A stretch of DNA of 64,000 nucleotides from assembly GCA_029068655.1 (NCBI GenBank), contig JAIECF010000112.1, positions 1 through 64,000 of the forward strand, given 5' to 3'. Below are positions 25,437 to 35,351 of the stretch, piece after piece. Positions within the stretch are counted from its first letter, which is position 1. The number at the start of each line of letters is the position of its first letter. Source of the DNA: Muribaculaceae bacterium. GTDB lineage: Bacteria > Bacteroidota > Bacteroidia > Bacteroidales > Muribaculaceae. The position numbers were made by a program, and so were the translations under genes. The notes beneath the pieces were generated by a model, which was not told the DNA's origin, did not search any database, and saw only the letters and a program-made list of their open reading frames with translations.

Positions 25437-26279
25437 ATGGATAATCAGAACAGAAGATATAGAGAGAAGGAACGGACCCGGGAAAAGCAGCATACAAGTT
25501 CAGAAATTGAGGAAAAGCCTGATGATATCTGCCCGTTCTGCGGTGCGGAGATGGATCCCGACGATATGTGCTGCACTGAATGCGGAGGTCCGCGATCGGG
25601 AATCAGATGCCGGAAATGTGGAACCCTTAATTTTGGAAGTTTCTGCTCCGATTGTAATGAGCCGCTTGACGATCTTGCCAAAGAGGCTGTGCGTCAGGCA
25701 AAAAACGACCCTCATTTCAAAGAGGCCGAACGTCTTGCAGTGGAATTGGCGGAACTTGACCGGATAATTGCAGATCTTTCAGATAGCGACGAGTCCTCTA
25801 TGTCGGTTGAGGAGCCCAAGAAGCTTGACACTTCTACCATGCTTTCCGATGCTGACCGCAAGGCGCTCGAAAGATACAATGCATTGTTTGCGGGAATCAG
25901 CGACATCAAAGTGAAGCCTTCTGTTGAGCGGAAACAGATAAAATCGAAAGGTAGTTCTGCGAGGACGCAGGGTTTCAATTTAAGCGGAATGAGCCTCGGG
26001 GAGGCTGTGAAAAAATATAAGGAAGTGGCTGAGAAGCTTGAAGCAGAGCTGAATGCAATGCTCCCAGATCCTAAAGCTGCTCCTCAGGAACAACGAAATT
26101 TCTTCTCGGCAAGAAAAATCAACAGTGCCGGTCTTGTTCAGGTGCGTCAGTGCTGGGTGTGTAACTATTGCGGTTGTCATCACAATCAGCCTTCGGAGTG
26201 CTATAAACCCTGGATGGGAGGCAAGTGGATTATGGACACGAAATTGGGTGATCTCACGACTTCAACACTTTATGACTGA
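25437..26279 (+). CDS. Zinc-ribbon protein with N-terminal double zinc ribbon and C-terminal Cys cluster
   Basis: CPFCGAEMDPDDMCCTECG, CRKCGTLNFGSFCSDCN; C-terminal CWVCNYCGCHHNQPSEC; stop overlaps next start (TGATG). Confidence 0.8.
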   Translation: MDNQNRRYREKERTREKQHTSSEIEEKPDDICPFCGAEMDPDDMCCTECGGPRSGIRCRKCGTLNFGSFCSDCNEPLDDLAKEAVRQAKNDPHFKEAERLAVELAELDRIIADLSDSDESSMSVEEPKKLDTSTMLSDADRKALERYNALFAGISDIKVKPSVERKQIKSKGSSARTQGFNLSGMSLGEAVKKYKEVAEKLEAELNAMLPDPKAAPQEQRNFFSARKINSAGLVQVRQCWVCNYCGCHHNQPSECYKPWMGGKWIMDTKLGDLTTSTLYD

Positions 26280-29200
26280 TGGCAGATAAAGATAATAATA
26301 GCAACCGGGGCTGGGGTGGATCCCCACAGAAAAGCAACACCGGCTCACAGCAGGGTAATCCCGCCTGGGGTGGATCCCCGCAGAAAAGTAACACCGGCTC
26401 ACAGCAGGGTAATCCCGCATGGGGCGGATTCCCACAGAAAAGCAACACCGGCTCTCAGCAGGGTAATCCCGCCTGGGGTGGCTCCCCGCAGAAAAGCAAC
26501 ACCGGCGCAGGTGAAGTCGTCGCAAATAGATTTACTGATGCTCCTGAGTATCCTCAATATGAGATTGACGGTATTGTCTATAAGATGATTAGGGTGGTTT
26601 CGTCCAATTCAGGAGAAGCGAAGATTCTCGAGATAGAGAATGCTGGCCATCACTACGCTCTAAAGTTGTATAAACCTCGTGTGCATCCAAATCATGAGGT
26701 TTTGGAAAGGGTCATGAAGCTTCGTGGTAACGGTATGCTTATCGACATTTACGCCCATGGAGTATGGACCGACAAAACCACAGGTGTCGAGCACGACTAC
26801 GAGATCATGGAATATTGCAGCGGAGGATCGCTTGCAACCCTCAAACTCACCGGAGACGAGAAGAGAATGAGGGAAATAACAGCACGCATGGCGGCGACAC
26901 TTGACTTTGCCCATGCTCACGGAATACTTCACCGCGATGTCAAGCCTGCTAATTTTCTTTTCACTGATGATACTCATACACAGTTTGTCCTGACTGACTG
27001 GGGACTCGCTAAAATCCTTGATAAAGATGGGAGAGCGGTGACCGATGAGGGGCGCACAAAGATCTATGCAGCTCCGGAGATGTATTCATACATACCGGGC
27101 AAACTCACTTATGTGGATGCAAAAGCTGATTTCTTCTCAATGGGCATGTCGCTGCTCGCCTTATGGATGGGTGAGGGTCTGCTTACGGCCGACGAGGAGG
27201 AACTGGTGGATAACAAACGTTATGGAAAGTTGCCGTATCCTTCTACTTCAGAGATGAGCGAGCACCTGCTGTCGCTCATTAAGTCCTTAACTCTCGTCAA
27301 TCCTAAGGAGAGGGCCGGCCTCGAGGAGATCGCAAGGTGGGCCAGGGGAGAGATAATATATAAGGATCCGGTGGTCGACGACAGTTTGCGTGAGTTCAGA
27401 ATAGTCTTCAGCGCCCAGAAAAAACTTATAGCCCATAATGCTAAGGAACTTGGCGTTATGATGTGGGAAAACCGTGATTTGGGAAAAGATTATCTTTACG
27501 GTGAGCTCGATAAATGGCTTAAAGATGTAGATCAGCCTGAACTTTCCAGAGAGATAAAGAAAATCAAGGAAGAACTTTATCCGGGAAACAGGGACGCAGG
27601 CCTTTTCGCCGCAGCCCTTCTTTTAAATCCGGAGACACTCTATGAGGGCCTTGACGGTAAGCCTTTGAATACACAACAGGATATCGCCCGGGAACTCTTC
27701 GATAATTCGGCTGCATATAAGAAGGCTCTTTTCCGAAAAAAAGAGCATCCTATATGGGCGTATCTGAGTGCCAACGGGCTCCGTGAAAGAGTCGAAGAGT
27801 TTCGCAAACTCATCAATAAGAACGGCGAGCAAGGAGTGCTGACCATCGCATACATGCTCGATCCTTCACTGCCCTTCAGATTTCCTTGTATTAAAGGAAA
27901 TCAAGATACTTATGTAGAGATTGACGCGCTGAAGGATCTTGCGGATGCTTTGGCCGAAAACAAAATAGAACCTTCAGAAATTTTCCTTGGCGATGACTTC
28001 CTGCTGTGGGCGGCCTATCGCAATCCTGAGCTTGCTGGCAAGGCCAAGGAGATAGTAGACGGAGGTTTCAGAAGTCTGGTAGAGAGCTCAAGATCAGCCT
28101 CCGGAGGATCTCCTACCGCAATACATCCGTTGTTGCAGAAGCTCGTTGACGGTAAGGGAGCAACTTCTGGAGTGGAAGAGAAGATAAGCGATGATATGAA
28201 AGCTGCCTACCTGTCATATGTGCTGCTGCCGGATGTGGGTATGGACTACAGGCCTATAAGCGAGTCAAATCTCGCTACTCCTGAGCAGATTGCCATGAAG
28301 ATTCAGCCTGAGTCTTCAATCTATAAGGGAAAGCTGGCAGTCTCGATGGTCGACATGGATGACGATATCAGGGCATACTTTGCGGCTCGGGGGAAGTATG
28401 ACAGTCTGATAAGCTGGATGCGATACTGTTTTGATTTCAGTTCTTCTGACTTCCATAAGAAATTTGTGCCTTATGACGAAGTTGTGGCTCGTTTTAAAAT
28501 AGCGGCTGGTTTCAATGGCTCTCCTCTACCTCTGCATGTAGATGGCAAAGTTTTAACAGGGCTTAGCGATGTTGAGCGCGAGGATCTGTCAGGGTTGCCG
28601 ACACACATTCAGGATATGATAGCCAAGTGGCTTTCGCTTTTCTTTCATGAGGAAATCAACGCCGACTATTCCAGATATTCATATTTTAAGCGTGCTTCAC
28701 GTTTCTTTCAATTTATCTACACCAATCTGCCGGGGTCATCGTATGCTAAAAACGCCAAACCTAAGGTAGACGCTATCAGGAAGGCTGAGAAAGAGTATCA
28801 GCGTGAATACAGGAAAGTGAAGATAGTGAAGTGGTTCGAAGCTCTTTTCTGTCTCCTTCCGCTCCTGCTCGTCACTATTGCCGGAGTCTATATTCTTATC
28901 ACTCAGGGAGCCTCGGAAATAGGGTCGATTATGAATACGATAGGATACTGGAGCGGTATAATAGTCGGAGGCATAGCGGGTCTTGCCGCTTTAGGCGAGA
29001 CGGGAAATATTATTGTCGGAGGCATAGTGGCCGTGATATGTTTTGCAATAGTAAAGATCTGTCTGGTCTTTATCGCTCCTGCTGTGCCGTGGATAATACT
29101 GGGATTCTTTCTCATTCAGCTTTTGTATAACGCTTATCTGGTGTTTACTCCGGAATACGGAAGCGTGGCTTCAAATTATTCAGACTTGCCGATGAGCGAG

Positions 29201-34360: not shown

Positions 34361-34418
34361 TGACAGTTGGCCAGAAAGCATGAATGTAAGACAGAATAAA
34401 CAAGATATTTGTATAGTT

Positions 34419-35351
34419 ATGAAAAAGTTACTCGTTTTGATATTGGTTCTCTTTGTTGGAATTTCATTTACATTAGCTGAGAATCAAAGATATATGGTTT
34501 CTCACAAAGATGGAAAAGCTCGATTTGTCCCTGTTGAGAAAAGCGGTGAAAACTGGAAGTATGTTCGACCGATAACGGATGTCTACCTGGAAAACGGCGT
34601 TGAAGTTGAAGGATTTAAGATAAATCCTGATAAATCGTTGAACTACACCGGAACTCCTTATGTAGCACACTCTACTTTCATTATCCGGCACGAAGGGAAA
34701 TATTACGTGGATCCTTTCCCTGACAAAGATCTTAAACCAATTGATGAAAACGGCAATCTTACATCCGAGTTGGGAATACGTAATTATCTGAGCAATACAG
34801 CTGTTGGAACATTCTACCTTACTAAAACACCCGGTTTGATAGCATTGGTGTGTACCCTCTTTTCAGGAATATTCTTACTTTTGAGCCTTTCGAGAGGTAG
34901 CGCACCTTTGTTTATGAGATGGATGGCTATGCTGCCTCTTTGCATCATCTCGCTTTTGGAAATCGGCGCCGCATTTTCATTGGGTACTGAGGCTGCATGG
35001 TGGGTGAATCCTGATGATGTGGGTTACTGGATTGCAACTCCGCTCTTGATTCCATATTCAATAACGGCATTATTGATGGTATTTTCCTACAAATTGTATA
35101 AAAGAATTGGACGTTTTGACGGGCCGGTCAACATTATCGTCTCTTCTTTGCTGATAATTGGTATGGTCCTAACGGTCATCTCTTTTATTTTTGTAATTAT
35201 TAACTTCGTATATGCTGCATGTTGTCTGATTTTCTTAGCTTGGTTCTTCCGAGGTTTCGACCACAAAGACAGCAATGGCAACACAATTAATTATGGCCCG
35301 TTTTCAACTCACAAGACGGACCGTTATGGCAACACAACCCGAATAAATTAA
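34419..35351 (+). CDS. Signal-peptide and multi-TM membrane protein
   Basis: MKKLLVLILVLFVGISFTLAENQ start preferred over 34380; extracytoplasmic region then about 4 TM helices. Confidence 0.6.
   Translation: MKKLLVLILVLFVGISFTLAENQRYMVSHKDGKARFVPVEKSGENWKYVRPITDVYLENGVEVEGFKINPDKSLNYTGTPYVAHSTFIIRHEGKYYVDPFPDKDLKPIDENGNLTSELGIRNYLSNTAVGTFYLTKTPGLIALVCTLFSGIFLLLSLSRGSAPLFMRWMAMLPLCIISLLEIGAAFSLGTEAAWWVNPDDVGYWIATPLLIPYSITALLMVFSYKLYKRIGRFDGPVNIIVSSLLIIGMVLTVISFIFVIINFVYAACCLIFLAWFFRGFDHKDSNGNTINYGPFSTHKTDRYGNTTRIN

Follow-up and report, generated by a model that had tools for sequence, protein, structure and literature searches.

In the threonine-phosphorylation pathway of the type VI secretion system (T6SS), PpkA-PppA-Fha1, a kinase acts together with a PP2C phosphatase and an FHA reader. 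A docking step is described for PknG and GarA/OdhI: a disordered extension of the kinase bears threonines that it autophosphorylates, and these dock an FHA domain and raise phosphorylation of the FHA protein, which has a kinase-target threonine of its own (PMC8546545). A Ser/Thr kinase, PP2C and FHA domain are encoded in one operon in KKP (PMC11341870), and the CbbX/SpoVK/EccA clade of AAA proteins consists of dedicated chaperones (PMC10659427). Here we describe a block of five genes in a 64,000-nucleotide stretch of a Muribaculaceae genome (contig JAIECF010000112.1, positions 1 to 64,000; hereafter the window), which encodes a zinc-ribbon protein (ZnR), a Hanks-type Ser/Thr kinase (KIN), a multi-module ATPase (AAA), an FHA protein and a PP2C phosphatase. 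Its parts are familiar and its docking step has a precedent, yet we could not find the combination named. A first-pass annotation of the window had called it a candidate undescribed machine and, consistent with this, text searches of the open-access literature gave no paper on the five-gene set. Names of known systems (KKP, MADS, other PADLOC systems, NCBIfam) were rejected, as they gave only generic kinase or AAA domain matches.

The block spans 25437-34360 on the forward strand in the order ZnR (25437..26279, 280 aa), KIN (26279..29755, 1158 aa, membrane-linked), AAA (29752..33114, 1120 aa, with four CbbX/SpoVK/EccA-type AAA modules), FHA (33111..33641, 176 aa, a double zinc ribbon plus FHA domain) and PP2C (33638..34360, 240 aa). 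These assignments draw on open reading frames (ORFs) and Pfam for all five proteins, NCBIfam for AAA, motifs for KIN and AAA, transmembrane (TM) prediction for KIN, and AlphaFold2 (AF2) models for ZnR and KIN. The ORF coordinates agree with the five consecutive ORFs of the first-pass annotation and with its overlaps of 1 nt and 4 nt; Pfam confirmed the kinase, multi-AAA, FHA and PP2C identities (for the window proteins, Pkinase 9.6e-28, FHA 1.8e-9, PP2C_2 6.6e-9), and the four P-loops of the ATPase were located at 94, 352, 622 and 904. The same annotation had made its proposal hang on co-conservation elsewhere, and we found the five genes in this order at 17 further loci, 18 with the window. 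Because the same order recurs at these 17 loci, the gene set goes beyond chance. The five-gene signalling unit is real, and it is patchy across one phylum.

Four of the 17 loci (numbered here with the prefix L) surround full-length AAA relatives in the same family (L044, L045, L048 and L049), where L043 ends at a contig edge. The remainder came from ZnR profile searches, which recovered the set in the same genus (L126-L128), in the order outside this family (L070, L071, L073) and in the phylum outside this class (L082-L085, L103-L105). Genes are occasionally inserted within the set (L085 has SUKH, L127 the membrane-protein gene MEM, and L105 and L070 carry extra ORFs), and contig ends cut L043, L072/L074, L075, L081, L098 and L129. 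Identity to the window proteins falls to ~25% (kinase). Moreover, trees built for each of the five genes over 12 loci agree with one another (Mantel r 0.69-0.92, p<=0.0006 in every comparison).

The catalytic motifs of KIN are all intact (ALK, HRDVKPAN, DWG, APE). The protein consists of a threonine-repeat tail (residues 1-84), the kinase domain, a helical middle region (375-816), TM helices at ~840-1040 and a C-terminal beta domain (1062-1157); the 4-5 TM helices predicted near the C-terminus and the repetitive tail add to the first-pass annotation. Every listed match in a fold search was to the kinase domain, with none to the middle, TM or beta regions. The FHA domain keeps its phosphothreonine-binding residues (GR, S..H and NG, conserved across relatives), and the metal-binding aspartates of PP2C are conserved (D20, D56, D199, D231).

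Every kinase that could be read starts with a tail of short threonine motifs, in tandem in almost all. The 84-residue tail of the window kinase is repetitive (p<0.0005 by shuffling), with repeats WGGSPQKSNTGSQQGNPA encoded by 3.6 copies of a 54-bp unit at 26311..26506 on the forward strand (Tandem Repeats Finder), and it is disordered in the AF2 model (pLDDT ~27). The motif is GTAIPSG in L048, GT[SA][IV]AGG in L049, DKTLKPD in L070, SGTQRP in L071, [DE]xT[IV]R in L081-L085 and L103-L104, APQASDTGRP in L126, DVHSTGRASGR in L127, SGTAVPP in L128 and STIRP in L129; the tails of L073 and L105 are short, with one or two threonine sites each. We regard the repeats as a candidate array for autophosphorylation and FHA docking. 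A tail that is disordered and repeat-rich, with units that vary between lineages, would also suit a flexible low-complexity linker, in which case the kinase and phosphatase would be an ordinary pair and the FHA domain would recognise either the activation loop of the kinase or some unrelated substrate. Several lineages without a matching FHA motif favour such a linker too. However, the way in which the tail motif is copied in the FHA protein makes this explanation rather unlikely.

At L082-L085 the FHA C-termini match the tail motif of their own kinase (EKTVRI, DATVRV, DKTVRI, EKTIRV). The prediction of a TxR[IVL]-COOH end, recorded beforehand, held in three fresh genomes (L103 DRTVRL, L104 EKTVRL and the more diverged L105 DKTERV). 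This end is therefore present on 7/7 FHA proteins of one broad clade, which are related sequences and not seven independent events; in all seven the threonine lies exactly four residues from the C-terminus and the preceding ten residues are unconserved. Across the 550 ORFs of all loci only seven end in TxR[IVL], all of them these FHA proteins, and none of the other FHA proteins of the window's genome does so (0/7). L048, L049 and L128 carry a copy in the linker ahead of the FHA domain, and L071 shows a weaker match. In a position-weight test, own-locus motif sharing was significant for FHA (p=0.0001 over 18 loci; p=0.029 with one locus per clade) and not for PP2C, ZnR or AAA. Sharing of the tail motif is thus specific to FHA. 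In the window's order, 'GDTVRL'-like strings close to the FHA end were rejected as motif copies, as they belong to the FHA fold. Two further clusters in the window's genome, L017 (G000:C4) and L018 (G000:C232), hold several FHA proteins, Hanks kinases and a PP2C with no multi-AAA, and an FHA/ZnR protein there carries an NKTVREED-like site.

We consider it an even call whether the five genes form a self-contained, horizontally patchy phospho-signalling module in which PknG-GarA-like tail docking of FHA and a reset by PP2C control a dedicated AAA remodeller. As we infer it, the membrane-anchored kinase would autophosphorylate threonines of its disordered N-terminal repeat tail, and the FHA protein would dock on the phosphothreonines. 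The FHA protein's own motif, at the C-terminus or in the linker in many lineages, would be phosphorylated in turn, whereupon the protein may close onto itself or form chains with further copies; we liken this latch step to PknG docking and latching GarA/OdhI, the nearest established precedent. PP2C would reset the phosphorylated sites. The switched FHA protein and ZnR would recruit or release the multi-module CbbX/EccA-like ATPase, which may act as the dedicated remodeller of a client, probably membrane-associated. The TM helices of the kinase suggest a membrane location. As in the PknG-GarA/OdhI system of Actinobacteria, the module's kinases have an N-terminal extension bearing threonines, modelled as disordered for the window. 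However, this tail is usually a tandem array, and any such motif in the FHA protein is a copy of the tail motif, placed either C-terminally or in the linker. Unlike PknG, moreover, the kinase is membrane-linked and constantly encoded with AAA and PP2C, and no Pfam match to the rubredoxin or TPR domains of PknG was obtained in 16 module kinases.

Several observations weigh against this scheme. No clear FHA motif copy was seen in the window, L044, L126, L045, L070 or L073. The window's own subclade (window, L043, L044, L126) is without a clear matching FHA motif and, therefore, for the window itself the latch step would rest on relatives. The AAA+FHA pair can exist without this kinase: L046 and L047 hold AAA and FHA only, without full kinase or PP2C (L047 near a contig end). 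At L105 the kinase gene is short (549 aa, without the long C-terminal part) and AAA has three modules. Finally, it is only the constant co-inheritance and the shared zinc ribbons that suggest control of AAA. With regard to the L046 and L047 pairs (L046:8353-12113, L047:220-3992), ZnR is also missing, the genes lie beside housekeeping genes, the FHA binding residues are intact and both genomes belong to one genus.

Pfam AAA matches four stretches of the ATPase and AAA_lid_6 matches three. A Walker B motif accompanies each of the four P-loops. In modules 2-4 the Walker A/B motifs are canonical and there is a GY sensor-1, with AGY invariant among eight sequences, whereas module 1 is divergent. 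Because modules 2-4 retain canonical nucleotide sites and the GY sensor-1, and mostly also an aromatic residue in the pore loop, AAA is likely a threading remodeller. The number of modules per chain is usually four and ranges from three to five; L070 has in addition an ORF for a 174-aa AAA-like fragment between AAA and FHA (L070:14627-15151). In their AAA_lid_6 and GY sensor-1, modules 2-4 resemble the CbbX/SpoVK/EccA clade, the best solved relatives being CbbX and EccA1. Unlike that clade, AAA has several modules per chain and a zinc ribbon, and its neighbours are phospho-signalling genes rather than Rubisco, spore or ESX genes. CbbX or EccA proper was rejected: it passes three NCBIfam equivalogs that exclude one another, each by the summed scores of three stretches, and no Rubisco or ESX neighbours occur at the loci inspected. 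The absence of Rubisco, ESX, T6SS and Ter genes beside the cluster, noted in the first-pass annotation, was borne out. Unlike T6SS PpkA-PppA-Fha1, the module has ZnR and AAA as constant partners, and T6SS structural genes were not found around it in the window or among Pfam-scanned neighbours.

ZnR has two CxxC ribbons at the N-terminus and a coiled coil; its C-terminal domain, WxCN...H..PSEC..P..GGKW, was encountered only within the five-gene module. Its AF2 model (pLDDT 74.5) gave no credible match in a fold search against the PDB. The Pfam DZR match falls below the cut-off for ZnR and above it for the FHA protein; N-terminal zinc ribbons are found in ZnR, FHA and, as CxxC motifs, AAA.

We identified the module in 6/148 genomes of the family (by AAA), 4/60 of the genus (by ZnR), 5/395 of a phylum sample and 7/296 of another class, that is, in a few percent of genomes at every rank sampled. 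In a same-genus relative, L120, the histidine kinase-response regulator (HK-RR) pair, which lies upstream of the module in the window, and DUF4954 are 60 bp apart and the module is absent, which defines the segment 25310..35404 of the window as accessory. Given the low prevalence at each rank and this empty site, the module is an accessory cassette inserted in this lineage. Inspection by eye alone gave no evident target-site duplication. L127 has a strongly diverged module beside the same HK-RR pair, and the pair (window 22782-25309, L120, L127) is a possible integration hot spot. As a module member it was rejected, given that L120 retains it without the module and most other loci are without it. 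Downstream, MEM (34380..35351, forward strand) encodes a signal-peptide/multi-TM protein, with a probable start at the ATG at 34419 (MKKLLVL), in agreement with the 58-nt gap noted previously. The only other copy found, a homologue at 55%, sits in L127 between KIN and AAA, and thus MEM was rejected as a core component; of the cluster as first drawn, the five genes stand as the core, with the 3' membrane gene as an accessory present only occasionally.

A patchy cassette with an empty site could also be a kinase/phosphatase system resembling KKP or MADS, anti-phage or toxin-antitoxin-like in its action, with AAA as effector or sensor. KKP offers a precedent for FHA-bearing kinases and PP2C in defence (PMC11341870), and there is weak kinase-domain similarity to mad6 and PD-T4-6 and AAA similarity to IetA. 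However, PADLOC matches within the core proteins are confined to generic kinase or AAA domains, and the two kinases (one with a CSD) and prophage location of KKP are not seen in the module. Among 83 neighbouring proteins PADLOC recognised no complete known defence system, and its matches were few and scattered, a count made with no formal background comparison, several being to families that resemble housekeeping proteins such as DnaG. Most flanking genes are housekeeping or metabolic, no effector of the nuclease, pore or NADase kind was recognised, and no ZnR relatives were found in viral contigs or plasmids. We therefore think a defence role improbable. The first-pass annotation had proposed a writer, reader and eraser controlling an AAA remodeller; its co-conserved set tied to a CbbX/EccA-type AAA stands, whereas enrichment in defence islands is unsupported and the neighbourhoods lend nothing to phage defence as the output. 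Matches to AAA on plasmids were chiefly from Sinorhizobium and Streptomyces.

SUKH/SMI1 and DUF1963 families include immunity proteins, and their genes recur within or after the module (L081:4665-5198, L082:10445-10966, L085:7289-8083, L044:18110-18757, L070:16931-17575). A Sel1-repeat protein and a ~270-aa family recur beside it (L043:7993-9701, L126:13190-14914, L127:14271-15161, L128:3331-4158, L070:17587-18396). All four were rejected as core and are optional neighbours.

The least probable alternative, a diverged TerY-P triad with a kinase and PP2C switch, FHA in place of vWA and stress or metal sensing through zinc ribbons, draws on the shared kinase, PP2C and zinc ribbons (in three of the five proteins) and on same-family relatives whose vWA-like, PP2C, kinase-ZnR, multi-AAA and radical SAM cluster has AAA modules 31-37% identical to those of the window, but a vWA protein occurs in 0/18 complete loci, FHA is present at every one, and the kinase is unfused to a zinc ribbon, its C-terminus being a membrane and beta region (no C-terminal zinc ribbon in 16 kinases). 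A TerY-P-like cluster of this family (L050, L051, L052) encodes multi-AAA and vWA-like proteins, PP2C and a kinase-zinc ribbon, together with a MIT_C-type protein, a radical SAM protein and a coiled coil.

In summary, the five genes form a conserved and so far unnamed signalling-remodelling module, an addition to the phylum's repertoire. The sequence by itself yields a concrete wiring, namely which threonines would be phosphorylated, their reader, their eraser and the motor presumably controlled. More tentatively, and with considerable doubt on our part, a multivalent phosphothreonine array on a membrane kinase may assemble FHA by short-motif mimicry and so gate a multi-module AAA unfoldase for one client, an undescribed class of machine and a prokaryotic counterpart of Chk2-Rad53 phospho-array/FHA logic. 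If the proposed module is correct, the PknG-GarA docking principle, known in Actinobacteria, would extend to another phylum and to the control of an AAA machine.

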